From Isoetes taiwanensis (Eukaryota > Streptophyta > Lycopodiopsida > Isoetales > Isoetaceae): 64,000 nucleotides of DNA. This document shows, piece by piece, positions 12,443 to 33,060 of the stretch. The notes under the pieces were generated by a model that did not search any database, was not told the DNA's origin, and saw nothing but the letters and a program-made list of their open reading frames with translations. Each line of letters opens with the position of its first letter. Positions within the stretch are counted from its first letter, which is position 1. The translations under genes were made by a program, and so were the position numbers. The stretch is taken from contig JAJEKV010000058.1 of NCBI GenBank assembly GCA_021234155.1, forward strand, positions 8,182,992 to 8,246,991. Direction: 5' to 3'.

Positions 12443-12493
12443 ACACCAATAATTCACATCAATAATTTTACTTCACTATAAAAGCAGCTCCAT
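12443..12493 (+). promoter_or_regulatory. Core promoter of mini-ORF unit 1, element copy B
   Basis: TTCACTATAAAAGCAGCTCC with a TATA box at 12477-12483. An ATG in CATCTCCCATGG follows at 12520. Identical in layout to the promoter at 2893-2942. Confidence 0.6.
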
Positions 12494-12519
12494 CGGGTGG
12501 TAGAGCTCATTCATCTCCC

Positions 12520-13087: not shown

Positions 13088-13138
13088 ACCCCAATAATTC
13101 ACATCAATAATTTTACTTCACTATAAAAACAGCTCCAT
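13088..13138 (+). promoter_or_regulatory. Core promoter of mini-ORF unit 2, element copy B
   Basis: CAATAATTCACATC block ending with a TATA box at 13122-13128, followed by CATCTCCCATGG with the ATG at 13165. Fourth occurrence of this promoter in the window. Confidence 0.6.
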
Positions 13139-13164
13139 TCGGGGCTAGAGGTCATTCATCTCCC

Positions 13165-13497
13165 ATGGATTATTTGCCTTTCTTACGTTCACCACATCGA
13201 GGCGATCAAGTGCTCAATGAGCCACTCGATCTTGTTGGTTGCCTAGACGGGCATCTTCTTCTTGATCCCTACCGCCGAAGAAAAGCTTTGGGCGCCGAGA
13301 TTCATTGCCTCCGCGTCAATTCGTGTTATGATCCATCTGATTTGGCTCCCCGGCGCGCAGCTATGAGATATCGGGGATCACTACTACGAATCCCGAAGAT
13401 GAATGAATCACCTGTTCAACATATAAGCACTTCTGACCATCTTATCTATGAATCATGTATGCATTTATATATTAAAGATGTAAGCAGTTATATATGA
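13165..13497 (+). CDS. Mini-ORF unit 2 of element copy B, unknown protein
   Basis: Open frame of 110 codons whose ATG follows the TATA box by about 37 bases. It begins MDYLPFLRSPHRGDQVL and includes DLVGCLDGHLLLDPYRRRKA. The first 60 residues look protein-like; the tail from about residue 85 reads into AT-rich sequence shared with the transposase 3' flank, and in copy A the C-terminal part is in another frame, so the true end is uncertain. No domain was recognised. Because promoter and start codon are duplicated upstream in the same element, this could be a small element-encoded protein; a non-coding relic cannot be excluded. Confidence 0.4.
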   Translation: MDYLPFLRSPHRGDQVLNEPLDLVGCLDGHLLLDPYRRRKALGAEIHCLRVNSCYDPSDLAPRRAAMRYRGSLLRIPKMNESPVQHISTSDHLIYESCMHLYIKDVSSYI

Positions 13498-13549
13498 TCA
13501 CAAATATAGTAATGTACAAGATCTTATGTATTAAGATGAAAGATATGTA

Positions 13550-16104: not shown

Positions 16105-16466
16105 ATCGCTATTTTCCCATTGTACAAGTGCATTTTCTCACTGGCTTTTTTTACGCACAAGCATGACATTTGAGATCCTCTCGTAATTAGTGCAGAAGGA
16201 TCTTTCCCACACGAGCCCCACCTTTGAGTCTCCTAAAATTCATCACAACAAAGATCCCGGGATCATCAAGACAATTATGGCCTCTGCATATTTACTTCGG
16301 TCACATGCATGAAGAATGTGGCAATGCTTATCCAAGAGATCGGTTCTTGAGAAACTAAGTGGTGGTTCATCATCATCTGATGCTATCCTGCGAGAGGAAA
16401 ACGTGTAATGAGATCTCTTTGTAGGATCAATTTCTTCATCTGCATCTGACACTGCCTCTACAGATT
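16105..16466. other. Spacer with a weak minus-strand frame
   Basis: The minus-strand frame 16243-16452 (69 codons, starting MSDADEEIDPTKRSHYTFSS) is acidic then basic and could be an extra N-terminal piece of either neighbouring element gene. No domain was recognised, and no promoter or splice evidence connects it. Confidence 0.3.
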
Positions 16467-16712
16467 CTACGGAGTAGCTAAATCAATGGCATGATATCTT
16501 ATATCCTGCCGAGGCCATTCGATAAACGTGCCCACAGCCTCTTCAATGTTGTCAGCGCCATCACATGGAATCGGAAGGATGTGGGTAGGCACTACAGCCT
16601 CGGTAACTTGCCGCCACGCGTTGAGTGCGTCAACATTCTTCCCATGGATGCAAGTTCTATTCACGCAGACACCCTTACCAACCACAGTATTATTACTGAC
16701 AAGGTTCACCAT
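16467..16712 (-). pseudogene. DUF8039-like domain fragment, copy 1
   Basis: The minus-strand translation contains VVGKGVCVNRTCIHGKNVDA, then VTEAVVPTHILPIPCDGADN and IEEAVGTFIEWPR. The ending L-P-x-P-x(n)-E-A-V-G-T-F-I-x-W-P-R resembles the DUF8039 domain carried by plant CACTA (En/Spm) element proteins. Only one domain, about 80 residues, is left, with no start or surrounding gene. The neighbouring fragment at 16728-17123 is a second copy in the same strand, giving a tandem pair. The family call is from memory of the motif and is moderate. Confidence 0.5.
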
Positions 16713-16727
16713 ATTCTCTCGTCTTTG

Positions 16728-17123
16728 CTATTGTTTGTAGGGCGGAGCGATCGACACCGAAGTCCGATGATGTTGTGGAGGGACTACTAGGCAAGTTGGG
16801 GTATCGATGTCGAGGCGTTCCCGATGACATAGTTGGGGCTCCTTCCACGATGGATTCACTTGATTTCGAGGCCATTCGATGAATGTCCCCACGGCGGCAA
16901 TGTTATATGCTCCCTCACACGGAATGGGAAGCACATGGGTGGGCACTATGGCTTCAGTGACCTCCACGACCACATTGCACCATGGAATGTTCCTGCCATG
17001 CAGATGGCCTCTATGCAATTCATGTCCCCTGGCAACTACCACATCCCCATCGACAAGGTTACGCAGGGGCCTTTTCCTATGAGAATCAATACACATATAT
17101 ATATACTTGTTAAGGACATGCAA
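16728..17123 (-). pseudogene. DUF8039-like domain fragment, copy 2
   Basis: The translation shows NLVDGDVVVARGHELHRGHL, then HGRNIPWCNVVVEVTEAIVP and LPIPCEGAYNIAAVGTFIEW, with WPRNQV closing the domain. It matches copy 1 residue by residue over about 65 positions (VTEA-I/V-VPTH-x-LPIPC and VGTFIEWPR), so the two are tandem duplicates separated by about 150 bases. Upstream on the minus strand the frame opens into an AT-rich leader (MHVLNKYIYMCIDSHRKRPL) that may follow a splice acceptor. Nothing else of a CACTA gene is visible. Confidence 0.5.
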
Positions 17124-17199
17124 CCCTCGATGACATATATACTTAGTAAAAATAGCGCGAAAATGTGAAAGAAATTATACGACATGAGACAAATGGCGC

Positions 17200-17475
17200 A
17201 GCTGCTCCATTTACGAAATGGCGCAGTCGCGCCCTTTACATTTAAATGGCGCAGCTGCGCCATTTGCCTATCAATGTGCCATTTTCCTTGAAATGGAGCA
17301 GCTGCGCCATTTTCCTTGAAATGGAGCAGCTGCGCCATTTCCCTTTTAAATGGCGCACCTGCGCCATTTAAAGGGAAATGGCGCTAATGGCTCCCATTTC
17401 AAGGAAAATGGCGCAGCTGCTCCATTTCAAGGAAAATGGCGCAGCTGCTCCATTTCAAGGAAAATGGCACATTGA
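17200..17475. repeat. Palindrome array AAATGGCGCAG/CTGCGCCATTT
   Basis: About ten tandem or near-tandem units built on ATGGCGCA, often joined head-to-head with its complement. Exact 22-base palindromes occur at 17244-17265 (centre GCAGCTGC) and 17348-17369 (centre CACCTG variant). The array is far more GC-rich than its surroundings. The same palindrome recurs at 26742-27035, 28684-28833 and, degenerate, at 30490-30910. Confidence 0.8.
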
Positions 17476-17800
17476 TAGGCAAATGGCATCTTCAATCTAA
17501 ATGCTATATCTAATAGCTAGAGTTATGGATTCCTATTACTACAAGATTCAGCAAGACATCAATTGTTGAGAACTTATCTACTGAACAAGATAGAGAAGAT
17601 CTACCCTTAAATATATTAAAACATTTAACATCCTACATCCTACATTAAACATACTAAAACATTTAACATACTAGAACTGAATAGCCTCTAACCTGGAGGT
17701 GATTGACGATTCCGGATCTGCCATATCAGAGAATGCGCCTGAAGAATTTGGACAAGCGCCTGAATAATCTGGACAAGTCTGGACAAGCGCCTGGAGAATC
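17476..17800. other. Spacer ending in a GCGCCTG minisatellite
   Basis: AT-rich DNA with repeated ACATTTAACATCCTACAT-like words, then at 17735-17800 three units of GGACAAGCGCCTGAA(G/T)AAT. The same GCGCCTGAAGAAT units resume at 25763, directly outside the right end of the long inverted-repeat element, which suggests the element sits in or beside this minisatellite. Confidence 0.45.
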
Positions 17801-18075
17801 CATTAGAGGTAATTTGAGATCTCCTTTTGTCCCCATAAGAATCCTCCAATAGAATGAGTACTCTATATCAAACTGCAATTAATGCAGCATTAACAACTTC
17901 ATTGCATCGTTTTTTCCCTATAACTTTTGATCTACTCATGAAAATGTTGCGACGTTTGTTGCATTAGATGCAGAATGAAAAGATCTTTCAAGTGATATAT
18001 GGTTATGGGGATTTTTATTTGGAGGGTTTTTTTGAAGATGGCTGAGAGGGTTTCTTAGAAGAATCTTCTTAAGAA
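17801..18075 (+). repeat. Left long terminal inverted repeat
   Basis: Begins CATTAGAGGTAATTTGAGAT. Shared subterminal words continue to TTTGGAGGGTTTTTTTGA near 18020-18040 and AGAGGGTTTCTTA at about 18045-18060. It pairs with 25350-25762 in inverted orientation; identity is high in the outer 36 bases and patchy inside. Confidence 0.55.
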
Positions 18076-18657
18076 TATTCTGATATGGCGGGATGAAATC
18101 TTTTCCAATCTTGAAAACTGACAACATGTCACTCTCTAGTACAAAATTGGAAGCTATTTCCTAGTCATTTAACATCCACCTTTCAAAGAACGAGCAAAAT
18201 TCACCATTGAAGCAAGAAGCAAGAATCTCACAATCACAATTATTTGCATCCATTAGAAATTAAAGTTTCTTTCACAAACCAAGTTTGATGGTGTCTCGCC
18301 AGAAAGAGAAAGGATTCAAATTGTGGATAAGAAGTGTCAATAGTGAATTTCCCCGTATAAACACGGAAAGGATTCATACAGAATATAAACCAAGTGAGTG
18401 TCTGGAAGGGGTTTTTTTATCGATGTTTTCATATGTATACTAGAGGTTTCAATTCCCCTCTTACTGACATTCTAATATAATCTCTCGATGGAAGGGATAT
18501 GGAAAAGGTGAATCTTCCAAGCGAATTTATGAAGTTCTAAAAATCCATCGAGGCATTGATTGAGGCCCACAAATACTTTTGAATATCAAGGCATTTGTGA
18601 TTAAACATGGCACCCCTTAAGATTTCGTAAGTAACACTCATTTTATTCGTTTTTGGG
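18076..18657. other. Interior of the long-TIR element, no gene seen
   Basis: AT-rich, without an open frame of interest. Contains nothing recognisable until the hairpin repeat at 18658. Confidence 0.45.
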
Positions 18658-18760
18658 TTGCCCCTAGGGGGGCAAGCCCTTGTTTATGTGGGTGTATGGC
18701 ATATTCCAAGTATATGCTAGTATATACTAGGAATATGCTAATGACTGCTAAAAACTTGCT
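18658..18760 (+). repeat. Hairpin-bearing repeat, copy 2
   Basis: Starts TTGCCCCTAGGGG(GG)CAAG, itself a small stem, then a longer hairpin whose arms are ATATTCCAAGTATAT and ATATACTAGGAATAT, then AAACTTGCTAT. It matches 10512-10607 in order and spacing. It lies about 70 bases upstream of the ECD fragment, so it could be the edge of the captured segment. Confidence 0.6.
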
Positions 18761-18830
18761 ATGGAGGGTAAACTGGCGGTGGTCGCCGTTGTTGGGCAGC
18801 GACTTTGAAACTGGCTAACCGGTTTAACAG

Positions 18831-20058
18831 ATGGAGTCTTCCACGGCAATGGACGCTGTTCTATACGCTCTGTGCCCTGATTTTGTAGTAAGTAACAGCG
18901 TCCCAGAAATTGACGTCCTTTCTCGACTCTCAGACCTTCGGCAGGTATGCCTTGAAGCAGTTTCGAGTATCGCATCTTCTTACATTTGGCAGCATCAGGC
19001 TTTTGATTTGGAAATAGCTATTAAAACCCCTTCATCACATTTTGAACTATCTATTAAAGATTGGAAACACGAAGATGATCGTAAGTAGGAGGCTGGGTCT
19101 TGGATAAGTTGTCCTTGCTGTATGGCAAGGTGAAATATGGATATAACATAGAGGATGAATGGTTTGTGGCCCATTTGTTGTATGAAATTTCTAGAAGGGT
19201 TGCAAGTATATCAATTCAGGTGTGGGATTCAGATGGGCATTTTTTGTTGATTGAAGTGCATATAGTATACCTAGGTGGCTAAAACCCGAGAACATCACAA
19301 ATCGTATATTTATTAGAAGAGGCTGCCTTCTCATCTTGCCGTTACCAAAATCACCAGCATAGATCTTTAAGCTGCATGTGAAACCTTCTCTCAGAGGTGC
19401 TCTGCAGGTTCTAGTTGAAGGGGAAATTGCTACTAAAGGCGCAGATGGTGTCCAGGAGGCTATAAACAGAAGACTGAAAGGATATCCTGGAAAAGCAAGG
19501 CTTAATATGCATCACATGAGATGCTAGGGTTCCACTACCAGTTGCACAATTATTGAAACACGAGCCTCAATTAGTTGCATTGGCTGTGGATGCCTTCGAT
19601 AACAGGGATATTGATGCCATGAAAGCAGCTTCTTGCATGAAGAAGTTTTTGACATTTGGCCCCAGAAAGTGAACCAGAAATGGTCACTCTGCTGGTATAC
19701 ATGTCTAGAGTGTACAACTTATGCAAAGAATTGTTGCAAGTTCAAAATGCTATCCAATACCACCATTCTCTTTTGAATATCGTGAAGCCGGAGGCATATC
19801 GCGAAATGTTCTTGAATCTTGATTTTGCAGTACCGCCATGCATGCACCAGTGAGATGTATTGGTGATATACTTGCTCTGCCATATTCCGTCAACGACTTT
19901 GCTGGATTAGGCAATTCAAATAGTAATGATGATTCGTGGATGCATAATGAGGAGCAGAACTTCACCAAGCCATGGACGAAAGGCAAAGGGAGATTGATGC
20001 TTATGAGGCAAAGAAAGTAGGCTTAAAAGAAGAATCTCACATCCGAAGAGTGCGGGTA
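18831..20058 (+). pseudogene. ECD/SGT1-type (ecdysoneless) gene fragment
   Basis: Frames 18831-19088 and 19100-19282, plus further pieces in changing frames, follow the ECD family in order: AMDAVLYALCPDF, SSYIWQHQAFDL, VKYGYNIEDEWFVAHLLYEI, SDGHFLLIE, then KPENITNRIFIRRGCLLILP (about 19283-19345), EAINRRLKGYPGKARLNMH (about 19455-19513) and LKHEPQLVALAVDAFDNRDI (about 19550-19610). ECD proteins act in mRNA splicing and cell-cycle control in animals and fungi; plant members are less studied. Stop codons and frame changes near 19090, 19282, 19370 and 19670 make it non-functional. A further acidic stretch (19838-20058, with LPYSVNDFAGLGNSNSNDD and then ERQREIDAYEAKK in another frame) may be its C-terminal tail. 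It is the first of three captured genes, all in the same orientation. Confidence 0.8.
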
Positions 20059-20361
20059 ATATTTGATTTAGCATTGTCTTTACCTTCGGACTTAAAGAAG
20101 CTGCTTTGCTCAATTTCGAGATGACATTGCGCTTATTCCAAATGATACCGAGGAAGTATGTGAGGCTGGCACGCAAAGGAAGAATGCTGCAAAACTTAGG
20201 ATATGCATATGAAGGCTTTAGATTTCGTGGTAGGTCTAATAGAAGCCACAGACTTAGATTGTTTTGAGGTTGGAAAAAGCTTGACAATAGAGTATCAAAA
20301 CTATGTCTTGCAGTTTTAAAAGCGCAACAAGAATTTTAAACTTGACTGATCACTTCTGTTC
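20059..20361 (+). other. Unidentified coding-like link between ECD and NAC pieces
   Basis: Several short frames look exon-like (for example ICMKALDFVVGLIEATDLDCF near 20200-20262) but do not match ECD, NAC or ATPase sequences that I recognise. It may be the 3' part of the ECD gene or a piece of a fourth gene. Confidence 0.3.
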
Positions 20362-21072
20362 ACAGATAGCGGAAGACTAGCCTAGCATTCCCGTCGGTGT
20401 AAAGTTTCCAAGTGACAAGGAACTACTTGAACATCTTACAGCAAAAGTAGGAAGCGGTACCCTAAAACCTCATCCATTTATTGATGAATTCATTCCTACT
20501 TTAAGCTTTGAAGATGGGATCTGCTATACTCACCCCGAGAAGTTGCCAGGTAATTAACTCTCCTTTTTCATGTCAGCAGACTCAAAGAACTATCATTCAT
20601 ATAATTACTTCGTGTTGTGCAACATATTGGCTTAAGGTGTAGTAAATTATGAATCTAAAGCTGGTGGCTTTACAGAGCTGTGTGCATATCTGCTATTGCA
20701 AGCTTATGGTCATTGTCAATTTGTATATGAGGCTATCTGAACTATGACTTTGTTAGTATACGTTGTGATGGAATTTTCATCGTCCTGCTAATGCATACAC
20801 AACTGGTACATGTAAACACCGAAAAATACAAAAGGATAGTGAAAATACATCCAAACACTGGCCGGCACAAAACTGGAAAAACTAGAGCTGTTGTGGAAAA
20901 TGGGATACAGTACGGGTACAAGAATATCATGGTGCTTTATACAGGTTTTGCAAAAAACATGAAGCCTAAGAAAACTTGTTGGGTGATGCATCAATATCAC
21001 ATTGATAAACATGAAGAGGAAGGAGAGGGGGAACTGGTTGGATCAAAGATATTTTACCAGACTCAACCCAAA
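20362..21072 (+). pseudogene. SOG1-like NAC domain fragment (two exons)
   Basis: Exon-like 20362-20551 encodes [20 protein letters not shown], then [16 protein letters not shown] and [11 protein letters not shown], ending at a splice-donor-like G|GTAATT. After an intron-like gap, about 20768-21072 encodes [18 protein letters not shown] (one frame), then [33 protein letters not shown] and SKIFYQTQP. This is the NAC DNA-binding domain of the SOG1/ANAC008 branch, which controls the plant DNA-damage response. The N-terminal leader has a stop (just before SIPVG), one frame change lies near 20850, and the C-terminal activation region is missing because the sequence joins proton ATPase code at about 21070. 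The loss of both outer parts fits gene capture, not local decay. Confidence 0.85.
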
Positions 21073-21471
21073 CGTCATGATACTGCCGACACAGTGAGAC
21101 GTGCTTTGGAATTGGGAGTGAACGTGAAAATTATAACTGGAGACCAGCTTGCTATTGCTAAGGAAACAGGTCGTCATCTTGGAATGGGTACCAATATGTA
21201 TCCAAAGACGACACTTTTTTCAAATCAACATGATGCCAATCTTGTAGGAATGGATGAGGGTGAACCGCTTGAGCAAAGCGCGGATGGGTTTGCGTCTTTT
21301 TTCCCCGAGCACAAGTACAATATTGTAAAACGTTTGCAAGAACGTAAAACATATCCGTGGCATGACAGAGATGGAGTAAACGATGCACCAAAGATTAAAG
21401 AAAGCGGAACATTGGAATTGCCGTTGCGGATGCAAATGAATCTGCGACCAAATGCGGTGACATTGTGTTGA
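20791..21471 (+). CDS. Chimeric NAC-proton ATPase open frame, 226 codons
   Basis: One uninterrupted frame starts with ATG at 20791 inside the captured NAC exon, runs through the C-terminal half of the NAC domain (to SKIFYQTQP, about residue 93) and continues without a stop into the P-domain of a plasma-membrane H+-ATPase ([20 protein letters not shown], then [20 protein letters not shown]). It ends at 21471 after the hinge region. The first 25 or so codons and the last 15 are out of the ancestral frames. The catalytic-loop motif TGDGVND reads DRDGVNDAP because two compensating indels flank it. If transcribed it would give a protein without a complete DNA-binding domain or transport core, so a normal function of either parent is not expected. 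Expression is unknown; I list it because the frame survives across the fusion point. Confidence 0.5.
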
Positions 21472-22431
21472 CACAACCAAGATTGAGTGTTATAATTCAT
21501 GTTATCCTTACAAGTCGATGTATATTCCAAATAATGAAGAACTATACAATTTATCTTTGGTCTATAACGGTTTGTATTGTACTAGGATTCTTTTTCTTTG
21601 GCACTAATATGGAAATTGAGTTTTCTCCTTTTATGGTTCTCATCATTGCCATGCTTAATGATGGCACCATCATGACTATTTCAAAAGACGAGGGTAAAAG
21701 CCTTTTAAAATGCCTGGACGGTTGAAAACTACGTGCTATTTGTAATATCTTGCCTTAATGACCATAATATTTTCTTGGGTCAGTCATGATACACATTTTT
21801 TTGAACATCATTTCAAAGTGCACCGAATTGCTCATGATAAGAGGCAAGAGACAAATTCATATACCCGCAAGTGAGCATTGTGAGCCGTGCACTTATATTT
21901 GTTACAAGGTCACAAGGATGGTCTTTTATTGGGAGACCGGGAACTATGCTTGTAGTCGCTTTTGCGATAGCACGCTTACTCTTATTGCGGTTTATGCCCA
22001 CCGGCCGTTTTGCGAAAAATACGCTGGTTGTGGTTGGGGTCAAGCATGCATTGTATGGTTGTATAACATAGTGTGGTATTTACCATTGGATATCATAAAG
22101 TTCACTATAAGATACATATTGAGTGGATCAGCTTGGGATCTTGTGATAGAAAGGAAGATTGCTTTTACTACGCAAGAAAACTATGGGCGTGAAGCACGCC
22201 GGGCCCAGTGGGGCGCCCATTGCCGGGATGCCAAATCTTTGAAGCACCAACCGTTCCCGGCACACCATTTCACTTCTCTGCGTGGCTGATCGTGATCTCG
22301 CCGAAAAAGCAAAATGGCGGGCAGAGATGGCAAGGTTAAAAGACATTCACGTACTTAAAGCACATGTTGATGTGGTCGCAAAGTTGAAAGGTTTGGATGA
22401 CATAGCTATTCAACAATCTTACACCATATGA
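21070..22431 (+). pseudogene. Plasma-membrane P-type H+-ATPase, captured 3' part
   Basis: Starts in the P-domain ([59 protein letters not shown]), goes through the frame-shifted hinge ([20 protein letters not shown]), transmembrane segments (21465-21725: [32 protein letters not shown]), then 21871-22190 ([68 protein letters not shown]) and the regulatory C-terminus ending QQSYTI-stop at 22429-22431. Family members are about 950 residues; the N-terminal two thirds, with the phosphorylated DKTGT aspartate, are missing. At least five frame changes are visible (near 21415, 21685, 21900, 22200 and 22290). The end keeps a Thr in the penultimate position, the 14-3-3 binding Thr of the family, in a variant of the usual ending. 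Confidence 0.88.
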
Positions 22432-25349
22432 CGAAATTGTGGATAAACCACAAAACGAAGCATTTGTTTCACCACTTTGTCCATTATTTGATTTTGAATT
22501 GATAAGCATTGTGCTGGGTTTATGACTGTCAATCAAAGGACACTCTCCATGTAAGAGGTCGTTGTACAACTAGTCATTAGCCTACAAACCCTTGCCATGA
22601 GTGATTTGATGTAAAAGAAACTTTATCTATATAGCTTAAGTTTTGAAAATTTATTTGATGCCCTTGGTCAAAGTCCATGTCCAGGACAAGTGTACTTGCG
22701 TCAAATACTCTTTAGTATTTCATAATCCACGAAATGCCCTCAGACTACCATATTTTAGCACAACAAAGAGTGTTGTACAAGAAGACCTTTTGTTGTCTAA
22801 GAACCAAAAAAATTCACATCGGAATCATTATCACTAGATGCAAGGGCACTAGGGCCCTAGGTGAAATAAGAAACTTATGGGGGGATTTGTAAAAGCGAAT
22901 AATTAGAAGATGCTTTATGTTTTGCACTATTTCACCAAGGACATTAAATTTGTAAAATCCCGAAGGGATCATTTCTACAACATTAAACTACTCAGTTGCA
23001 TACACAACTCAATCGAGGGGCACTTGTGGACGGGCTTGTACATGAATGTAGGGGACCCACAAACTGATTGTAAGAACATGGTAGGGGTCTACTTTAATTT
23101 AAATATAGATTATGAAAACATGACTTCATGGTTTGAGTTTGATTCAGGCCACTTCACCCTCAAGAAACTGGAGGGCAACCCTCCGTGCGCAGCACCTTGT
23201 TCATTTTGGACCTTGGAATTCAAAATCATGACCCCCTTCCTTTGCCAAAATACAAAGACGCTACTCCAATGCGTAACCAACTTCAATGGCTTTTACATAA
23301 ACTTGTGGGCCATTCGATAACAAAATTGCCACCCAATGGTTCAATGAGATCTTGCCAACGTACACGACACAAGCAAATGGAGTGCTAATCCTTTGTATTA
23401 AAGTACCAACATGGTCCTCTTCCCACTAGATTATGCTCCTTATGAGCTTCGCACTTTGTATTTATAGTGTTGTATCAAATTTTCAACTTCATCTTTTTGT
23501 TGGCCTTCATGTCTAGATTATTATTTATCATTGGTGTATCATATATTAGCATGAGCAGATGACATGGTACATCCAAAATATAAGTATCGTGGTTATATTT
23601 CACTTTTTTATCCCATTACAAAAATATTGAAGGTGCAAAATCATAGCTCTTCAATTTACCAAGACACTCAAATATGGATATTGCCTGTTTGGATTCAAGA
23701 TAACATTGTTCACTCATGGTATTTTTATAGGCACCATGAATTTTTATAGGCACTTTGTAGGAAGATATTATTATCCTATGTGATCCTTATAGAATTATAG
23801 AAGCATGTATCAATTAAATAGAGGCATTGATGTTGTAACCATTTTAAACCACACATACTTTATTAGTGTTAAGCCGAAAGGAATAAATAAGGTAAATGCT
23901 TTGGAGAAAGAAAGGAGGACGTTGACGGTAGTAGGTAAATGCTTTGGAGAAAGGAAGACGTTGAGAATGACAAGAGAGTTTTATTTGAAAATAGTGTGCC
24001 CCTTCTTTTTACTTGAATGCATGTTTTTTTTGGCAGAAGAGCATGTTTGCCACAATCTTTCCAGACCCAGTGCGCCGGCGCGCATGCTCTAAACAGGTAC
24101 TAAATATTTTTCAAGTTTGTAACTTTCTCTGATTTCTCTGATCTTTCCGGCGCTCATGCTCTGTCTCAACGCTCATGCTCATGATTTCTCAACGGATTTT
24201 TTTCTATGCTCATGCTCTGTCTCAACGCTCATGCTCATGATTTCCGGCACTCATGCTCATGATTTCTCAACGGATTTTTTTCTATGTCTCAACGGATTTT
24301 TTCTATGTTTGTAACTATGTCTCAACGGATTTTTTTCTGGACAGACTTTGAACTAGGTCTTTCCAGACCTAGTGCGCCGCCGCACATGCTCTGCAGCTGT
24401 GAAATATTTTTCAATCTTTGTCCTTTGTCTCAGCGGAATTTGTTCTTGACAAAAGAAGAGCGCAAGCTACAATATTTCTAGATGTAGTGCACCGGTGCAC
24501 ATACTCTGATAACAGTAAATGTTCATACTGATTTTATCTAGTTCTTGGCTGAATGTTATCGGGTTGCTAAATCGTGTTTTTTGAAGTAATAACATTCCTT
24601 GCATCCCAGACATTTGATTGTTTTGTTTCATGTTTTATTTTGCATCATGAGAAGCTCCTTCTGCAGCAACTGAATGTCCTGGTCCTCACACTATTGAAAA
24701 AGACATAAAGTTGCTCGTACATCTAATGTTCTAAAGAGCAGTGATGAAGTGGAAGAATTGCTACAGGTCGCTAAGGCGGCACAAAAGAACGTAATGCCTC
24801 ATGTATCTTTGACATTAAGCCAAGTAATGTATCTGAGTTCATCTTCCAAGTAATGTATCTGAGTTCATCTTGCAATGGTGGCCTTGTTTTGTTATATTGT
24901 GGCCCTCACCATATGCTTTGTCGTTTTTCTTTTATGCTTTTCTTTTATTTGCACATTTCAGGTTCTAATGTTGAATAGCTCTTGTTTCCGGTGTCAAAAC
25001 TTCATTTGAAATGCAACAAATTAATTTCTAGCCTTTGTTGCAAACAACATGATCTTAGTTTTTGTTTTTCTATTCTAGGATCTGCTTGAACTTCCAAAGC
25101 AACATAACTATATAAAACTTATCGCCCACTCAGAAAATAATCAATTTTTAAAGAACTGTTGGCAACTTCTTGCAAATATAAAGTCTAAATGTTGCGAACT
25201 TCTTGTTGAATGTCCAAATATTTGTTGAAAAAGGCATTGATTTTGAACTTCAATACTTTGTACAACAAATGCTCTGATAGACATTGGAGAGTCAACTCCA
25301 AACAAGTGAACCAACGAAAATCTAGAACATTTTGTCTATAAATCATTTG
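22432..25349. other. Right interior of the long-TIR element
   Basis: No full gene recognised. Items seen: a 136-codon frame at 22910-23320 with protein-like stretches (MNVGDPQTDCKNMVGVYFNL) but no known domain; an approximate 46-base tandem duplication at 23895-23972 (AAATGCTTTGGAGAAAG repeated); a direct repeat cluster at 24140-24340 built from GCTCATGCTCATGATTTC and CAACGGATTTTTT; two copies of CCAGACC(C/T)AGTGCGCCG near 24060 and 24367; and an exon-like piece near 24716-24800 (SSDEVEELLQVAKAAQKN). These may be further captured or element-specific sequence. Confidence 0.4.
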
Positions 25350-25762
25350 TATATAAGCAAGCCCTCTAAACCCTTCTCAAAAAAACCCTCCAAAAATTTG
25401 CACTCTATGGTTATGATGTATTTCAATACAAGCCATATGTGTTAACCCTAAAAAATATGGTTTTTTGCTCTTTTCTTATATATTTACATCCCAAAAGATA
25501 TAACAATGGGTTGTCATTAGAAAGATCTTGAGGAGACGAATCCATTGCCACAAATAGTGTTCGAATCGGAGTTTTTGATCAAAAGTTATAGTAGAAAAAT
25601 GACACTGCAAAAGTTAGTTAGAACTGCATTAATTACTGCTGCCACATAATACTGGAATAAAATACACTGGAGCTCTTCTCTTATTGGACAGTTTAAAAAG
25701 CTGATGTGGCTTTTTAAGCATCCCTTAATGGGACAAAATGAGATCTCAAATTACCTCTAATG
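25350..25762 (-). repeat. Right long terminal inverted repeat
   Basis: Ends TCTCAAATTACCTCTAATG at 25762, the inverse of the left end. Inside are the inverse forms of the shared words (AAAAAAACCCTCCAAAAA near 25380-25397, GATCAAAAGTTATAG at 25576-25590 and CTGCATTAATTACTGC at about 25625). Diverged but collinear with 17801-18075. Confidence 0.55.
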
Positions 25763-25900
25763 TGGACAAGCGCCTGAAAAATGAAGACGAGCGCCACTAG
25801 AATGAAGCCAAGCGCCTGAAGAATGAAGCCGAGTGCCTAAGAACGAAGCCGCGCGCCTGAAGAATGAAGACAAGGGCTAAGCGGCTGCAAAAGAAAGACA
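25763..25900. repeat. GCGCCTGAAGAATGAAG minisatellite
   Basis: Four to five units of about 22 bases (AAGCGCCTGAAGAATGAAGC with variants). Related units flank the left end of the long-TIR element at 17735-17800. Confidence 0.65.
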
Positions 25901-26651
25901 AGCGGCCAAGCTGACAACTGCTGCTATCGACAAAGGAACCAACGTTTAAGACGGAATAGATGTCGGAGAAGCGCCCTGCTTTGTCGACCAAGTGATCTCA
26001 GGCGCAAATACCTACGAATATTGAAACGAGGACAAGGTGCATAAAATCGCAACCGTCGGAGTCGAGTATAGCGCCTTCTAATGACCATGTCTGCCTCCTG
26101 ACAGCAGACAGCGAAAGGGGCCCATTATGAAGTGCACGGGCGGGCAAATTCAAAGTTCAAAATATGGGCGGGCAAATTCAAATTTCAAATTTGAGCGGGC
26201 CGGCGGCGGGACACGGGCGTGCGGGCGGAATGACTCAAACTACTTAAAATTTATACTGGCGAACGGGGGGGAGAAACGGATGGGCGGGAAAATTCAAAAT
26301 TTTTAAAATTTATAGAGACGGACTGGCGGGCAAGAAAAATCGAAATTTTCAAAATTTCGAGAGACGGACGGGCGCGCAAATTTGAAGAGACGGGCGGGCG
26401 GGTAAAATTGGTTTTCTTTTCTTTCCCCCGACTTTTCTTTTCTTTTCTTTCCGTCCAATTTTCATTTTCAATTTCATTGTTCTTTTCTCCCGCCTTCCGC
26501 CTTCCGCTAGCGCCAGCGCCAGCGCCTAGCGCCTTGCACACTCTCTCTCCTATTCAACCATCTTCTCTCTCTAGCGCCTGTTGATCCGGGAGCGCTCGGA
26601 AAAAAAGTGGAGTAGGATTTATACGGTCCTGTACTTTTATACTTTTATACA
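25901..26651. repeat. GGGCGGGCAAATTCAAA repeat region upstream of ParB-like gene 1
   Basis: From about 26140 to 26410 the words GGGCGGGCAAATTCAAA, AATTTATAGAGACGG and AAAATTTCGAGAGACGGAC alternate in an irregular array that switches between GC-rich and AT-rich blocks. A pyrimidine-rich stretch (26405-26475) and CGCCAGCGCCAGCGCC follow. The end of the region would be the promoter of the gene starting at 26652; TTTATAC words at 26617-26651 are the only TATA-like signals. Confidence 0.5.
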
Positions 26652-28651
26652 ATGACGCAATCTTCGATCAAAATCCAAGAGCCAGGCTCAGGTTAGTATC
26701 TGTTGTTTCTATTCTTATCGATTTGTAGTGTCTTAGGTAACTAAAATGGCGCGGACGCGCCATTTCATTAGGAGAGGGTGGGCTTTTAGCAGCCTTTCCT
26801 CCTATAGTTTTGAAATGGCGCAGGTGCGCCATTTCCATAATGTCTGTTCATATTCTTATAGAAGCGGACCCATAGAAGAGCAAATGGCGCAGGTGCGCCA
26901 TTTAGTCTAAATGGCGAATCTGTGCCATTTGCTTTTCGAAGGGACCCATAATAGAGCAAATGGCGCACCTGCGCCATTTGCTCTATTATATAAAAGCTAA
27001 ATGGCGCAGGTGCGCCATTTAGTCTAAATGCTGTTTGCTGTTTTAACTTTCTAGCACATGCCATTTCTCTCACCATGCTTACCTCGCAGCGGCTAGTGCG
27101 CCGAAGAAATGGAACGTGGTGACATCGAGGAGCATAGTCCTCACTGGAAGGTCTTGGTGTATGGAGATCGTTAGAGCCATACCCTTGACTGAAGGCGTAG
27201 ACCCAACCGAGGGAGACAAGAGGCGAGAACTTTGCCTCCTTGTCAAATCAGGTACAGGTGAAGAAGGAGCCTCAGCCGTGGCCCAGATGGGCATCATTGT
27301 CAACATGAGGGAAGTCAAGAAACAAGGAAGACTTGACTTTCTTGGTTGCACAGTGGAAGATCCGGTCACTGGCAGCATTGATCTCTATTGCATGGATTGG
27401 CAGTGCTACGAGCCTGCAATGATGGAGTCCAGCATGAAGGACCAAGCACTGTCGGCCAAGAAAAAAGGTTGGCCGCTGCCATCTTATGAGTCCAGACAGC
27501 AAGCAGATATCAAAGGCACGGTAGAGATCCTGAAAGGATTCGGTATTCTGCGAGCGGCAATGGACATGTCCAAAAACTCCGTGTCCTACATTGTAAGAGC
27601 GAAGATCTCAGGCAACATGCCAGCAGTAATGGATAGCAGATGGCTGCTGGGAGAGATGCAGAGAAAAGGTGGAAAAGGTAAACCAGCCACCAGAGTTGCC
27701 AAAGTAGCAAAAACAGGCGGAGGTGATGAATTACAAAGGGATACAGAACAAGAAGGAGGACGAGACGATGAGAAGAGAGATGAGGATGATGTGCATCAGG
27801 ATGAGAAGAGGAATGATGTTGATGCTCATAAACATGATTCTCCTGTGAAGTCCACTAAGAAGCCTGCTGATGAGAGGTCTGCTGATAGTGACTGCACTAT
27901 TAGTGACAATAAGGAGGCTACAAAGCACATAAGAAATGTAGCATCCACAGCAGATAGCACTCCAGCAAAGAGAAAGCAAGAAATCAAAGCACAAATAAGG
28001 GCCAGGAAATTACAAAAGATTGCAGATCTTCAAGTGCCCGAGGAACTAAAGATGGACCGTGACGAAGAAGAAGAAATGGCAGAGGAAACACTAAAGAAAA
28101 TACAAAAGCACGGCCACATGTTCCCCCTTGGAGTCACATACACCAGAAGAATATCTATCTGGGATCTAGAAGAGGCCCCACCTAATATGACCGCCAGGGT
28201 TATTAACCCCGAGCATGTTAGGAGGCTCTGCAAATCATTTGCTGAGGATCCACACCCGGTATTCACTCCAGCAGATGTAGTGCCCTTTGATCCGGATACA
28301 AAGGAGTTGCTGAGCTGGTCACAGGAATCTGACCTGATTCGGAAAAGATTTTATATTATCAATGGTAATCATTCGGTCGCTGCTGCTCAGCTCGTGTGCA
28401 GTAAGTTCGGGACAGAGGATGCTAGAGCTGAGCTCAGCAAGATCTATGTCTATAGAATATGCAGAGTTCTTTCTGGAGAGATCAGTGACCTGGACCTTCT
28501 TCAGCTCAATGTGGATGTGAATGATATAGTAGCAAAGAATGTCTTCAAGGAACCATATGTGGATCAGATCCACCATCTTCGCAAGCAGTACCAGGAATGC
28601 GGAAGACCAGCCCCTGCTAGTAAAGGACAGTCAAGAAGCGACGAGTACAAG
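26652..28651 (+). CDS. ParB/sulfiredoxin-like protein gene 1, exons 1-2
   Basis: Model: ATG at 26652, exon 1 of 40 bases (MTQSSIKIQEPGS) ending TCAG|GTTAGT; intron 26692-27089 closing TCGCAG; exon 2 27090-28651 ending AAG|GTACGT. Both exons join in frame, giving 534 codons without a stop. Residues 20-210 are a globular region with no family recognised (GRSWCMEIVRAIPL, MGIIVNMREVKKQGRLDFLG); 215-330 are highly charged; about 365-445 form a ParB/Srx-like domain (ARVINPEHVRRLCKSF, FTPADVVPFDPD, then YIINGNHSVAAAQLV). INGNHSVAAA takes the place of the G-x-H/R-R nucleotide-binding loop of ParB and sulfiredoxin folds. No ParB-type HTH or sulfiredoxin Cys was seen. Downstream exon and methyltransferase-like code belong to the same gene. 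The short exon 1 and the intron positions are predictions, supported by the same phase in gene 2. Confidence 0.6.
26742..27035. repeat. Palindrome array in intron 1 of ParB-like gene 1
   Basis: Exact 22-base palindromes of the type AAATGGCGCAG/CTGCGCCATTT (centre CAGGTG or CACCTG) lie at 26813-26834, 26882-26903, 26958-26979 and 26999-27020, with partial units at 26744-26766 and 26910-26932. Spacers hold GGGACCCATA-type words. The array lies wholly inside the predicted first intron. Confidence 0.85.
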
Positions 28652-28865
28652 GTACGTTTACGTCTCCTTACCCATACATTTATCGAAATGGCGCAGCTGC
28701 GCTATTTGAGTTGAAATGGCGCAGCTGCGCCATTTGAGTTGAAATTGCGCAGCTGCGCCATTTGATGTAAATAGCGCAGCTGTGCCATTAGATGTAAATG
28801 GCGCAGTGCGCCATTAGATGTAAATAGCAACATTTGAAATTCTAAAATCGCCAGTTCTCTTGCAG
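28652..28865 (+). repeat. Intron 2 of ParB-like gene 1 with palindrome array
   Basis: Intron from GTACGT to CTCTTGCAG. Bases 28684-28833 hold five tandem units of (A)AATGGCGCAGCTGCGCCATTTGA(G/T)T, including an exact palindrome at 28714-28735; unit period is about 30 bases. The array fills about two thirds of the intron. Confidence 0.8.
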
Positions 28866-29576
28866 CACTACCATGAAATGGCAGACAAGATTCTGAGGGG
28901 CAAACACACGAAGGATGTCAATCGGTTTGTCTTCATGCCAGATGATGTCTATGCACTCTTCCGCCAGATGTGGAACAAATGGAGGAAGGGAGAACTTAAG
29001 GACAATAGGGGTCAAGCTATAGTAATCAATTTTGCTAAAGACAAAGACTACTTCAGTGACAACTACCTTAGATGCATGAGGGGCTTGGACTATGATGATT
29101 GTAGAAAGGTCCTCGAAGAAGCTTTAAGCGGGGATATATACGTCAAAGTCACCTCAGATTACAAAGGCGATAATTTCTTCAAGACGAGGGCACAGAACTT
29201 AAGAGTACTTGCTTACATGAAGAAGGAGATACTGCACTTCATTGCAGATCAAATTGGCACTAAGTACAAGAAATTCGAGGACCTACGGAAAGCCACAGAC
29301 CACTTCTCAGATAAAGCACTTCTGGCTTGGGGGGTATGCCACCATAAGTGGGTACAGGAAGGAATACTCAAAGAGGGAGTTCATGGTAACATGCCATTCT
29401 CCTTGGCCAGGTCCATTCGAAAAATCCTTCAAGGACCTGCCAAGATGGTTTGTGGAGCATGTCACTGCCGGGAGGATTCCAAACGAACATGCGATTCTAC
29501 CGCCAAAGATGATATGTTTAGATGCAAGGCGACTTACTCCGGTTTGGAATAGTGAGATCAGAACGTTTCTTCGATA
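28866..29576 (+). CDS. ParB-like gene 1, exon 3
   Basis: Follows the splice acceptor at 28865 in phase 0 with exon 2. It encodes HYHEMADKILRGKHTK, FVFMPDDVYALFRQMWNKW, GLDYDDCRKVLEEAL and RAQNLRVLAYMKKEILHFIA. The order of these blocks is mirrored in gene 2 (GLQDDEIIWLLNQCINKEV, THIKNMRVMKVAVGEELQKL), so this is a conserved middle domain of a ParB-like family, with no name known to me. Near 29400-29420 the protein-like sequence passes into the next frame (SFKDLPRWFVEHVTAGRIPN, HAILPPKMICLDARRL) and stops at 29574-29576, which points to a one-base indel. Codon 29552 is the stop of the original frame. Confidence 0.55.
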
Positions 29577-29685
29577 ACGCCTCACGAGATGACGATGTAG
29601 AGACATCTTGGATTCTATGTTTACGCCAGTAGGAGCATAACTTACTATTTGCCAGTGCGTTTGAAAGACTAGAATCCGGTCAAGA

Positions 29686-30332
29686 GTGTTTGTAGGAATC
29701 TATGAAGAGGAGACTGGAGCTACGGTGGTTCAGAATCAAAGAGCCACAAGCTCTTCTATTTGCCTTTCACGAGGATTTCGGCACGCAGGCGGGAGAGCCC
29801 GACGAAGACACGAACCTCGGAGCTATCACGGCGACCATCCTAGAAAGCTCCATAAAATTCCTCCTATTCCTAAGGAAGCCATCGGAAGTGAGGGTGATGT
29901 TATGGCTAAAAACTCATGCAAGGCAGGGTTTAAGTGGAGTTGGCGGGGTATGGAGGGAGAATATCCGGGTGCATAAACAGATTGGTCCCGCAGAATCTGC
30001 GTTCTACCTTGTTGATAAGCTCGCCCTCAAGGTAACATCGTCTTGGATTTCTTCTCCGGTGGAGCCTTCTCTAGGGCATCCCTTCATGTAGGAAGAATCG
30101 GTGTGACATACGAGCATGAGTTAGGAAAGATGAAATGCGTAGCGGGCATTCTGGATAGGGTCGAGAACGTCATGTACCCATGGCTTGGCTTGACCCAAAG
30201 GCCATTGACCAACGCCAACGGGAAGTCTTGACTTTGCACGATGGTGAATCTCAGAAGGGGGCAGACGAAGAAGCTACTCATCTGAGAAAGGTGAGACGTC
30301 GGGCAAAGCCGGAGCGAAAGGGATCAAATTGA
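29686..30332 (+). pseudogene. ParB-like gene 1, methyltransferase-like 3' part
   Basis: The frame 29702-30091 carries FAFHEDFGTQAGEPDEDTNL, KFLLFLRKPSEVRVMLWL and AFYLVDKLALK. After a frame change near 30035 the frame 30043-30231 reads NIVLDFFSGGAFSRASLHVG and RIGVTYEHE. This fits motif I and the following acidic strand of beta-class DNA N4/N6 methyltransferases, where VLDPFxGSGTT sits near the C-terminus and is followed by a GR-x-x-x-G-I-E strand. A third frame then gives WLDPKAIDQRQREVLTLHDG and a basic tail KVRRRAKPERKGSN before TGA at 30330-30332. No clear catalytic DPPY-type motif was found here. The region between 29577 and 29700 has stops in all frames. Likely inactive in this copy, or damaged by sequence errors. 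Confidence 0.5.
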
Positions 30333-30489
30333 CCGCGATAAAATTAACACGGATGATTATGACAAAGTCTCGATGAACACTTCCCGGCAATGACTATTAA
30401 AAAAATTCTGTGTTTTGAAAAATTGTATCTTATATAATATTTCTATTAATATATATCTACATGGTCTTCTGAAAATATGTGTTATCTAT

Positions 30490-30910
30490 AGCAAAATGGC
30501 ACGAGAGCACTATTTGCTTAGTCTTCACGTTCACGCAAATAGCGCGCCTGCACTATTTGCTCGCTCTACACCTTGAAGTAAATAGCGCGCCTGCACTATT
30601 TGCTTGCTTTCACGTTCAAGCAAATAGCGGCGCACCATTTGCTTCCTTTCACGTTAAAAATAAATAAGCGTTTGCGCTATTTGCTTTGTGGTTATTTCTA
30701 AACTAAAGGAGCGGCCGCGCCATTTTGTTTGCTTGCTGGGCCCTTTTTGGCAATTTAATATCTGCTTTTGTGGTTCTCGGGCCGCTTTTCCTCATACTTT
30801 CCAAGTAAATGGCGCCATACTTCTCTTCCTGACAACTAAAACCGCGCTGTTTTATATTAAATGTAGCGGTTTTTGCATGATAACTGGTTTCTTTTTAAGC
30901 AAATAGTGCC
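30490..30910. repeat. Degenerate AAATAGCGC palindrome repeats
   Basis: Units such as GCAAATAGCGCGCCTGCAC followed by TATTTGC recur at 30534-30562 and 30572-30605, and weaker forms continue to about 30905. They are decayed relatives of the AAATGGCGCAG palindrome found in the introns of the gene just upstream. Confidence 0.6.
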
Positions 30911-30977
30911 ATATCTAGCCATAAATGTGTGATAAAACAGGGAAGAAACTGATTTCATGAGAAATTGGAATCACGAA

Positions 30978-33060
30978 ATTTCCAACTTTAATGAAACTCT
31001 GCTTTCTTGGGGTTTCTCTTCAAAACCTCGAAAAAACTCTGCATGCAAGCTCTAGTTCGGCGATCCTTGCTAGCTCAAAATGTGATTTTGACTTTGGGCA
31101 TGAGTCCAGAGCATCTAGTTTACTGTAGGGACCAGTGATTATGACCAACAGAGCCAAACTCGATTTGCTACAAGCAACTAGTCTATCTTTCATTCGATGC
31201 ACTCTAGCCTAGTGCTATAATGTAAAGCTAGCACGTACTTGGCAGTCCGGGCGTTTGACCGATTCCCTACTCCTCAGACATGTGTCCTAGGGTAACTCTG
31301 GCCTTTTGGATGCAACCGCACAGTCGAAAATTTCGTTGCATGCCAACTGGCATGCTCCGGTCGCACAATGTCCAAAGCTCGCGCGCCATCACAATGGAGC
31401 AAGTTTGGAACTGGCACTTGGGGAGGTTTTTTTGTTCTTTTTCTTAAGGTCTCTCTTCGAACCCTCGAAGGAACCCTGCACGCAAGCTCTTAACCCCTTC
31501 AGAGGCAAGGAAGGCTGCCAAAACCTAAACCCTACAGATTTACTAGGGTTTAGGTATCGGGGGAATAAAACAGCTCCATTTATTAATCCCACCGTTCAAA
31601 TAGTAGTTCATGTTATGTGAAACATTCTCAAAAAGAAAAATTGGACATCCACCGCACGGATGTCCCAACCCTCAAATGTTCCCCTTTACGGACATAAGAC
31701 AAGAGGGGGAAATGATGTGCCCCTCCAGTTCGGCCATTCTTGCTAGCTCAAAATGTGATTTTCACTTTGGGCATGAGTCCAGAGCATCTAGTTTACTGTA
31801 GGGACCAGCGATTATGACCAACAGAGCCAAACGCGATTTGCTACAAGCAACTAGTCTATCTTTCACTCGATGCACTCTAGCCTAGTGTTATAATGTAAAG
31901 CTAGCACGTACTTGGCAGTCCGGGCATTTGACCGATTCTCTACTCCTCAGACATGTGTCCTATGGTAACTCTGGCCTTTTGGATGCAACCGCACAGTCAA
32001 AATGTCATTGCATGCCAACCGGCATGCTCGGTCACCTACAATGTCCGAGTTCAGGCCATCACAAGCGAACAACGAGCAAGTTTGGGCCGGCATTTGGGGA
32101 GGGTGTTTTGTTCTCCTTCTTAAGGTCTCTCTTCGAACCCTCGAAGGAACCCTGCACGCAAGCTCTTGACCCCTTTAGAGGCAGGGAAGGCTGCCAAAAC
32201 CTAAACCCTACAGATTTACTCGGGTTTAGGTATCGGGGGAATAAAACAGCTCCATTTGTTAATCCCACCGCTCAAATAGTAGTTCATGTTATAGGAAACG
32301 TTCTCAAAAAGAAAAATTAGACATCCACCGCACAGATGTCCCAACCCCAAATGTTCCCCTTTATGGACATAAGACAAGAGGGGGAAATGATGTGCCCCTC
32401 CAGTTCGGCCATTCTTGCTAGCTCAAAATGTGATTTTGACTTTGGGCATGAGTCCAGAGCATCTAGTTTACTGTAGGGACCAGCGATTATGACCAACAGA
32501 GCCAAACTCGATTTGCTACAAGCAACTAGTCTATCTTTCACTCGATGCACTTTAGCCTAGTGCTACAATGTAAAGCTAGCACGTACTTGGCAGTCCGGGC
32601 GTTTGACCGATTCCCTACTCCTCAGACATGCCCTAGGGTAACTCTGGCCTTTTGGATGCAACCGCACAGTCAAAAATGTCGTTGCATGTCAACCGGCATG
32701 CTCCGGTCGCACAGCGCGCCATCACAACGGAGCAAGTTTGGAACTGGCACTTGGGGAGGGTTTTTTGTTCTCCTTCTTAAGGTCTCTCTTCAAACCCTTG
32801 AAGGAACCCTGCACGCAAGCTCTTGACCCCTTTAGAGGCAGGGAAGGCTGCCAAAACCCTAAACCCTACAGATTTACTAGGGTTTAGGTATCGGGGGAAT
32901 AAAACAACTCCATTTGTTAATCCCACCGTTCAAATAGTAGTTCATGTTATAGGAAACAATCTCAAAAAGAAAAATTGGACATCCACCGCACGGATGTCCC
33001 AACCCCCAAATGTTCCCCTTTACGGACATAAGACAAGAGGGGGAAATGATGTGCCCCTCC
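30978..33060 (+). repeat. Three tandem copies of a 675-bp repeat
   Basis: TTCGGC(G/C)ATCCTTGCTAGC and following sequence recur at about 31053, 31728 and 32402, a 675-base period. Each unit holds AAGGTCTCTCTTCGAACCCT, CTAAACCCTA and, 15 bases later, TAGGGTTTAG (an inverted pair of plant telomere-like boxes), and ends GGGGGAAATGATGTGCCCC. The array starts after TCCAACTTTAATGAAACTCT (30979-30998), which in inverse form ends the fragment at 11640-11746, and stops abruptly at CCCCTCC (33060). Translations in it (for example 31306-31620) are repeat shadows, conserved only because the DNA is. Confidence 0.85.

Follow-up and report, generated by a model that had tools for sequence, protein, structure and literature searches.

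The gene studied here is a decayed copy of an accessory gene carried by a DNA transposon of about 11 kb (nested insert excluded), which is present in many copies in the Isoetes taiwanensis genome and is bounded by terminal inverted repeats (TIRs) of about 25 bp and 4-bp target site duplications (TSDs). All coordinates refer to the window, the 64,000-nucleotide stretch of DNA that was analysed. The gene has at least three predicted exons, and its product probably begins with an N-terminal domain, continues with a ParB/Srx-like domain, for which support is moderate, and ends with a methyltransferase-like domain of the beta (N6/N4) class. We give about even chances to the whole explanation developed below, namely a decayed transposon accessory gene whose product is a predicted self-recognition factor binding palindromes.

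An earlier note on this DNA had described a plant (host) gene. It belongs instead, as an accessory gene, to a TIR transposon of high copy number, as the note's passing guess of a “selfish system” had anticipated, and the window copy is a decayed pseudogene inside that multi-copy element, which the note had missed.

The transposon and its copies

The TIR transposon proper occupies positions 11721-31004 of the window, with a nested insertion inside it (Table 1). TIRs and exact 4-bp TSDs were found in all seven elements with both ends located (7/7; 12 examined), the TSDs being TCTT, CACT, AGTT, TGTA, CATA, TAAT, and ATGT; in the other five (E907, E1031, E812, E977, and E1066), one or both ends were missing or lay beyond the fetched stretch. 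TSDs were read by eye, with AA/TT counted as the outer TIR bases (TA/TT in the C1010 element).

On the other strand lies a decayed DUF7869 transposase gene, whose helix-turn-helix part gave sub-threshold matches to HTH_29/HTH_Tnp_1; in a related element, the transposase is a single 858-aa frame (DUF7869 E 4.4e-42). A literature search on DUF7869 found no paper. Another element, diverged but built alike (family B), lies towards the end of the window and keeps the gene order and orientation of family A. The nested insert holds a putative P-type-ATPase-like frame, judged by reading its translation.

Copies are dispersed through the Isoetes taiwanensis genome, where the ParB exon has at least 78 scored places, each downstream part at least about 150, and a second accessory-gene list at least 104.

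Table 1. Features of the window (family A element, its accessory gene, and family B)
Feature	Coordinates	Strand	Basis or remark
Entire element including 4-bp TSDs (TCTT 11717-11720, 31005-31008)	11717..31008	.	TIRs and TSD read directly
Left TIR, AAGCAGAGTTTCATTAAAGTTGGAA	11721..11745	+	identical or similar end in six other elements
DUF7869 transposase gene, decayed; HTH part 15299-15772, DUF7869 14461-15291	13856..16137	-	PF25273 E 2.5e-31
Palindrome AAATGGCGCNNNNGCGCCATTT array, transposase 5' side; 8 matches, <=3 mismatches	17191..17455	.	
Nested insertion with its own 22-bp TIR (ATTAGAGGTAATTTGAGATCTC)	17802..25761	.	not in relative L002
Exon 1, accessory gene, predicted	26652..26691	+	start codon and splice signal
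Palindrome array, intron 1; 6 matches	26744..27020	.	
Exon 2: N-terminal domain, low-complexity linker, ParB/Srx-like domain (about 28110-28480, loop INGNHS)	27090..28651	+	
Palindrome array, intron 2; 4 matches	28686..28790	.	
Exon 3, in-frame portion: helical domain preceding methyltransferase-like domain	28866..29549	+	
Methyltransferase-like domain, frameshifted remains; VLDFFSGGAF at 30043-30072	29430..30231	+	
Degenerate palindromes by right end; 4 matches, 3 mismatches each	30494..30725	.	
Right TIR	30980..31004	-	
Family B, second diverged element, same plan	53777..64000	.	coordinates not set from element ends
Family B DUF7869 gene	54153-55268	-	
Family B accessory-gene remains	60524-63999	+	

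Exon structure of the accessory gene

The window copy starts with the ATG at 26652 (MTQSSIKIQEPGS). Intron 1 runs from a GT donor at 26692 to a CGCAG acceptor with its last base at 27089, and intron 2 from a GT donor at 28652 to the acceptor TTGCAG/CAC, where exon 3 starts at 28866. Exons 1 and 2 together give the spliced 534-codon frame that had been proposed (13+1+520 = 534), and the splice signals have been conserved from copy to copy. Of the copies in which the coding anchor closing exon 2 could be placed, the window's own (L001) among them, 21/21 have GT as the intron-2 donor; other fuzzy-anchor matches, mostly C812-type and family-B loci, were dropped, and C812-type copies lie outside this count. 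The joining of exons is predicted from these conserved signals.

Beyond about 29.43 kb, the exon 3 frame of the window copy is broken, with a stop codon at 29550-29552, and VLDFFSGGAF stands in a different frame from the exon 3 start. The earlier note had joined the ParB part to VLDFFSGGAF across these breaks, and relatives that carry both in one open frame bear it out (exon 3 and VLDFFSGGAF lie within a single frame of ~520-545 aa).

The ParB/Srx-like domain

The proposed loop, INGNHS, is present in exon 2. In hhalign, the ParB-like domain aligned with 73 viral DGNHR domains at a probability of 91%, over a helix, a strand, and a G-x-H/N-x loop. From 120 viral stretches found, 80 were used, yielding 76 frames with the motif, of which 74 had at least 60 preceding residues and 73 were taken; because this reference set was selected by the loop motif, the profile test is partly circular. 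Among controls shuffled outside the loop, 1/200 matched the real score, and these loop-keeping controls reached a median probability of 60% and a maximum of 91.7; with the loop masked, the score was 15.7 vs a shuffle mean of 10.3 and maximum of 21.3. The ParB/Srx assignment thus has moderate support from profiles, leaning much on the loop. The AlphaFold2 prediction for the ParB exon was of unusable quality (mean pLDDT 39.9), and no match came from a fold search with it; the domain put forward in the earlier note has profile support and no structural support.

At E 10, 24 members yielded matches that included no Pfam ParB family, PF02195 had no genome match at E 1 (2 candidates scored), and single-exon Pfam and PHROGs scans gave no ParB match. 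In HMM searches of solved structures, the ParB exon had no match at E 1, and the ParB domain matched two unrelated chains at E 1-2. Neither tblastn against phages and plasmids nor motif scans of viral and genome contigs, which address close relatives and not remote homology, found a close relative of either half; one of these searches gave three phage places at E 4-7.

Palindrome arrays

Family A carries a 22-bp palindrome, written AAATGGCGC-N4-GCGCCATTT, whose matches in the window all fall within the element (22/22), as against 0-1 matches in ten shuffled windows. Across the whole genome, there are 2385 exact places, vs 0 for the reversed control. Positions 11721-17190 and 30726-31004 hold no match at up to three mismatches. 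In family B, the corresponding intron holds an array of a different motif, GAATACACGCC, in mixed orientation, and a perfect palindrome of that motif occurs 0 times genome-wide. The palindrome arrays occupy introns and intergenic DNA, and slippage or hairpins could have produced them as a by-product.

The methyltransferase-like C-terminal domain

The C-terminal model resembles CcrM (Foldseek E 4.7e-07; VIA Z 18.6 over 208 residues at 3.9 A) and M.RsrI (Z 16.8), with a mean pLDDT of 50.9 that rises to about 64-84 in two core stretches. The predicted domain has a Rossmann fold that is circularly permuted and carries motif I at its C-terminal end, the hallmark of the beta class. PF01555 matches 6/19 members (best E 0.0017), and an HMM search of solved structures with the C-terminal half returned M.RsrI at E 0.28 (motif X-I region) and an odorant-binding protein at E 0.23. 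The sets compared, A1 (19 rows) and A2 (24 rows), were chosen by length among the fetched frames and are non-random.

Catalytic motif IV, sought as [DNS]PP[YFWH] (DPPY), occurs in 0/19 of the copies compared, and L-[DH]-[ATS]-R (LDxR) occurs in 19/19. LDxR appears to occupy the DPPY position, judging from the strand order of the model, the aligned ranges, and the motif order that we take CcrM to have; the profile alignment of the domain spans the motif X-I region, with the LDxR site outside it. The motif I region is partly preserved (VLDFFSxGAF, plus the E of YEHD) and is degraded further in family B. The beta-class methyltransferase that the earlier note placed at the C-terminus is upheld as a fold in the expected place; since DPPY is absent from all 19 copies compared, “methyltransferase” here names a fold, not a shown activity.

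Beta-class methyltransferases usually target palindromic sites, as the sites of this element are. The protein might be an active DNA methyltransferase despite the missing DPPY, methylating adenine (N6) or cytosine (N4) in the palindromes of its element in the self-marking proposed for algae. The predicted fold and the partly retained motif I fit such an activity, as does the Ectocarpus relative, for which production of N4-methylcytosine or N6-methyladenine is predicted (PMC12477816). We nevertheless regard it as unlikely in view of the missing motif IV, its apparent replacement in every copy compared, and the more degraded motif I of family B.

Linkage to the transposase and selection on the accessory protein

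Accessory gene and DUF7869 transposase are arranged head to head. Among the matches listed, a transposase was found within 20 kb of at least 26/78 and at least 18/104 accessory-gene places, compared with means of 0.30 (maximum 3) and 0.54 (maximum 4), respectively, when places were shifted at random by 0.1-1 Mb (1000 runs each), a control whose count is lowered on short contigs because contig ends were ignored. Independently of this control, the linked pairs are divergent in 44/44 cases among the 182 places listed, a figure that sums the lists of 78 and 104, which may overlap. For 138 of these 182 places, no transposase was nearby among the matches listed.

Gene order and orientation are unchanged even in a subfamily of 39-45% protein identity. 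dN/dS was 0.04-0.13 in all five between-subfamily pairs whose dS could be estimated (1.5-3.2, close to saturation), within a set of 18 chosen pairs of which four had saturated dS and yield no ratio. These ratios indicate that the accessory protein is under strong purifying selection.

Such selection and the uniformly divergent arrangement would also be expected of a transposition cofactor, a ParB/methyltransferase-like partner of the transposase that bridges or pairs the element ends without any part in silencing; palindromes lie near both genes and, in degenerate form, by the right end. The arrays of the window, however, lie for the most part within introns or along the 5' side of the transposase, away from the termini, and the palindrome-free stretches given above include both ends, which makes a cofactor role improbable.

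Plant TIR elements often contain captured fragments, and the ATPase-like frame of the nested insert could be set beside them, but a captured host gene fragment that spread passively, as in Pack-type elements, and is functionless for the element is very hard to reconcile with the low between-subfamily dN/dS, the conserved splice sites, and the gene order and orientation kept in the diverged subfamily and in family B. Despite its spliced frame and conserved splice signals, a domesticated single-copy plant gene has next to no probability given the number of scored places, the TIRs, and the TSDs, and is refuted for the decayed window copy. On the grounds of copy number, TIR/TSD structure, transposase linkage, and dN/dS, we rejected both the single plant gene and the passive passenger.

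Proposed role

In the explanation we prefer, the accessory protein would be a sequence-specific DNA-binding factor by which the element recognizes itself, binding the palindromes arrayed within the introns and close to the 5' side of the transposase. Once bound, it may either mark the DNA of its element or counter silencing by the host, blocking or removing it, with continued production of the transposase as the outcome. Methylation by the methyltransferase-like domain seems less likely to us than binding or complex formation, because motif IV is missing and yet the protein is kept under purifying selection.

A broader proposal, which we put forward tentatively and consider possible rather than probable, is that a ParB-methyltransferase of prokaryotic type became, in land-plant transposons, a sequence-specific reader that has lost catalysis. 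Family-specific arrays, palindromic in family A and of the other motif in family B, lying in introns and, for family A, also next to the transposase gene, would guide the protein to the element's own copies, which it would protect from silencing, in a VANC-like manner that evolved independently and with unrelated proteins.

The palindromes provide concrete candidate binding sites, and with them a direct test of self-recognition and silencing escape by large DNA transposons. The family also indicates that a methyltransferase half can lose its catalytic motif and yet stay under strong selection. Frames of this kind, misread as plant genes, are an annotation risk for lycophyte genomes, and that reading is corrected here.

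Comparison with known systems

The Sola superfamily is characterized by 4-bp TSDs and TIRs of 11-1124 bp (PMC10741241); the Isoetes element has both features (TSDs in 7/7, TIRs of about 25 bp) and resembles Sola in them. A further mark of the superfamily is a DDD transposase homologous to Sola transposases; the Isoetes element carries the DUF7869 gene with its weak HTH match. ParB-methyltransferase genes of transposons are known in algae, in Sola1-1_Ec32 of Ectocarpus and in similar green and red algal genes (PMC12477816), and the Isoetes gene is probably a land-plant variant, which would widen their range from algae to a vascular plant with high copy number. A literature search found no other land-plant ParB-methyltransferase transposon, subscription papers lying mostly outside its reach. 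As described for Sola1-1_Ec32, the transposon is large, the accessory gene lies on the strand opposite the transposase, and the protein, here a predicted one, has roughly 1000-1100 aa with a ParB-like domain (putative in Isoetes) and an N4/N6 methyltransferase(-like) domain (PMC12477816). Unlike it, the Isoetes gene resides in a land plant at the many scored places counted above, Sola-1 in Ectocarpus being one family in Table 1 of that account (PMC12477816); the Isoetes family has further lost DPPY in 19/19 copies, and element-borne palindrome arrays are described for it.

Compared with the beta-class N6-adenine methyltransferases CcrM and M.RsrI, the Isoetes protein shares the fold and the order of its elements, and differs in lacking DPPY, in its N-terminal ParB-like and helical domains, and in the introns of a eukaryotic gene. 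Fungal DNA transposons that carry TET/JBP genes likewise bear a gene with a DNA-modification fold, theirs a dioxygenase and the one here a ParB plus methyltransferase fold (PMC12730594).

The anti-silencing VANDAL/VANC transposons of Arabidopsis also combine a transposase with an accessory protein, and their short motif arrays lie in introns and upstream regions, with motifs that differ by family (PMC5735166). VANDALs belong to a different superfamily, being of MuDR type (PMC12730594), and the family A motif, unlike theirs, is palindromic; the Isoetes proteins and motifs are known from sequence and are likened to VANDAL/VANC by description.

Results

A repeated gene within a terminal-inverted-repeat transposon

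The gene combining a ParB/sulfiredoxin (Srx)-like part with a methyltransferase-like part is a repeat in the Isoetes taiwanensis genome (1,658,258,908 bases in 1110 contigs searched), its ParB exon having at least 78 scored places in a first list and at least 104 in a second, queried with a diverged subfamily member, and two downstream parts having at least 151 and 150 matches; all of these counts are lower bounds in which only the best candidates were scored. Both ends were located in 7 of 12 elements examined; in all seven, inverted repeats are flanked by a perfect 4-bp target duplication, different in each (TCTT, CACT, AGTT, TGTA, CATA, TAAT, ATGT). The CACT element, a member of the diverged subfamily, has repeats 5 edits from the query, and the AGTT element has its left outer AA replaced by TA.

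On its minus strand, the left half of the window element encodes DUF7869 (PF25273, E 2.5e-31) together with a transposase-type HTH scoring below threshold; in a relative this gene is a single 858-aa frame (DUF7869 E 4.4e-42). A listed transposase lies within 20 kb of at least 44 of the 182 accessory-gene places (26 of 78 plus 18 of 104), a minimum drawn from the matches listed for both genes, with randomly shifted places giving means of 0.30 (vs 26) and 0.54 (vs 18); every one of the 44 pairs is head-to-head. An earlier note had called it a plant gene, whether a transferred, domesticated or selfish system; its copies, the terminal inverted repeats (TIRs), the target duplications and the head-to-head transposase place it in a multi-copy TIR transposon, and we have little doubt that it is a transposon accessory gene.

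Features of the window element and of the family B arrays
Feature	Position	Strand	Basis or remark
TIRs, AAGCAGAGTTTCATTAAAGTTGGAA and its inverse	element ends at 11721 and 31004		read in sequence
Nested insert	17802-25761		22-bp inverted repeats at its ends; lacking in L002, another copy
Accessory gene, exon 1	26652-26691	+	frame and splice signals
Accessory gene, exon 2	27090-28651	+	frame and splice signals
Accessory gene, exon 3	opens 28866; broken after ~29.43 kb	+	frame reading
VLDFFSGGAF	30043-30072	+	frame differs from that of exon 3
Palindromes	transposase 5' side		8 matches, ≤3 mismatches
Palindromes	intron 1		6 matches, ≤3 mismatches
Palindromes	intron 2		4 matches, ≤3 mismatches
Palindromes	near right end		4 degenerate matches, ≤3 mismatches
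GAATACACGCC array, family B copies window/L019, L020/L042, L021, L023	upstream of exon 3

The 5' flanks of relatives match the window at 14.2-17.8 kb and then skip to 25.76 kb. Within the nested insert, the frame 20731-21468 resembles a piece of a putative plasma-membrane P-type ATPase (compare Pack-type elements). Positions 2226-5230 and 11778-14786 form a 3-kb direct repeat, 95.7% identical, the upstream member repeating part of the element's left end once more. At another locus (L004:279-301) the left TIR of another copy directly adjoins the methyltransferase part, at the point equivalent to window 29960; thus, elements insert into each other. In the complete element of C1045, a 196-aa open frame lies just within the left end (L018:3670-4257, minus strand); Pfam yielded nothing for it up to E 1, and it is possibly a third gene of the element. 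A 669-aa frame beside a further element (L010:7509-9515, reversed stretch) reads as a putative Ty3/gypsy-type polyprotein.

Decay and constraint

The frames, splice signals and motifs reported earlier are all present in the window, exons 1 and 2 together making up the 534 codons. Because exon 3 is broken and the motif-I-like stretch VLDFFSGGAF lies in a different frame, the C-terminal half of the window copy is pseudogenic. Less decayed copies hold both in one open frame of ~520-545 aa, bearing out the proposed joining of the gene parts. dN/dS is 0.04-0.13 in both halves for five between-subfamily pairs with estimable dS, rough values given a near-saturated dS of 1.5-3.2, and 0.07-0.45 in nine closer-copy pairs; four pairs were saturated in dS and gave no dN/dS. 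Constraint has kept the accessory gene across many copying rounds.

The two halves of the protein

The AlphaFold2 model of the methyltransferase-like half (19 aligned frames) has a low overall mean pLDDT of 50.9, with a better core. Its residues 204-451 superpose on CcrM (Z 18.6, 208 residues, 3.9 Å), with DNA methyltransferases as all of the first 20 listed entries, and Foldseek matches the model to CcrM at E 4.7e-07. Six of the 19 members matched Pfam N6_N4_Mtase, the best at E 0.0017, and profile comparison with five phage methyltransferases aligned the motif X-I region at a probability of 68%. The C-terminal methyltransferase-like domain suspected earlier is thereby upheld by its CcrM-like predicted structure, and the fold is virtually certain. 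The catalytic pattern [DNS]PP[YFWH] occurs in none of the 19 frames and L-[DH]-[ATS]-R in all of them; we read the catalytic motif as lost, with L-[DH]-[ATS]-R its putative counterpart. Methylation activity has probably gone as well.

For the ParB domain named in the earlier note, profile comparison with 73 DGNHR domains of viral contigs gave a probability of 91%, a score reached by 1 of 200 controls in which all columns outside the loop were shuffled, the control median probability already being 60%. However, structure modeling failed to give a usable fold, Pfam ParB families were absent from the matches of 24 members, PF02195 had no match in the genome among the best candidates scored, and with the loop masked the score of 15.7 (control mean 10.3) fell below the control maximum of 21.3. 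A ParB/Srx-like domain is likely present, less firmly than the methyltransferase half.

Palindrome arrays

The palindrome AAATGGCGC-N4-GCGCCATTT has 22 matches in the window (≤3 mismatches), all within the element and outside assigned exons, vs a total of 1 in ten shuffled windows. Genome-wide, 2385 exact places, in elements or elsewhere, compare with 0 for the reversed pattern, and the same arms with other cores recur in elements whose ParB exon/domain is 40-57% identical to that of L009, a family A locus.

The window also holds, at 53777-64000, a second element, diverged but with the same layout (family B), which has a DUF7869 gene and remains of an accessory gene of its own. Of five distinct family B loci examined, four have eight copies of the family B motif GAATACACGCC (≤1 mismatch) upstream of exon 3; L022, also of family B, has a single match at another position, and four family A loci of three elements (L009, L014, L018, L011) have none. 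The family B relative L023 has an additional downstream frame (L023:2543-3247) encoding a phosphatase domain of the NLI-interacting-factor (FCP1-like) type (PF03031, E 2.5e-16).

Discussion

The accessory protein may recognize its own element through the palindromes, and such recognition would lead to anti-silencing or marking of the element, a role to which we give about even chances. Published features of Sola transposons are target duplications of 4 bp, TIRs of 11-1124 bp and a transposase of the DDD type (PMC10741241); judged by its duplication and TIRs, the element is probably a Sola member.

A Sola1 family of 21.5 kb reported from the brown alga Ectocarpus carries, as here, an accessory gene on the other strand from its transposase, the product pairing a ParB-like domain with an N4/N6 methyltransferase-like one (PMC12477816); a transposon accessory gene of this kind is therefore already known. 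Relative to the literature searched, the novelty lies in a land plant as host, the number of copies, the absence of DPPY and the arrays of palindromes. VANDAL transposons, with their VANC anti-silencing proteins, carry motif arrays that differ between families and lie in introns and upstream DNA (PMC5735166), and the Isoetes families show this arrangement too.
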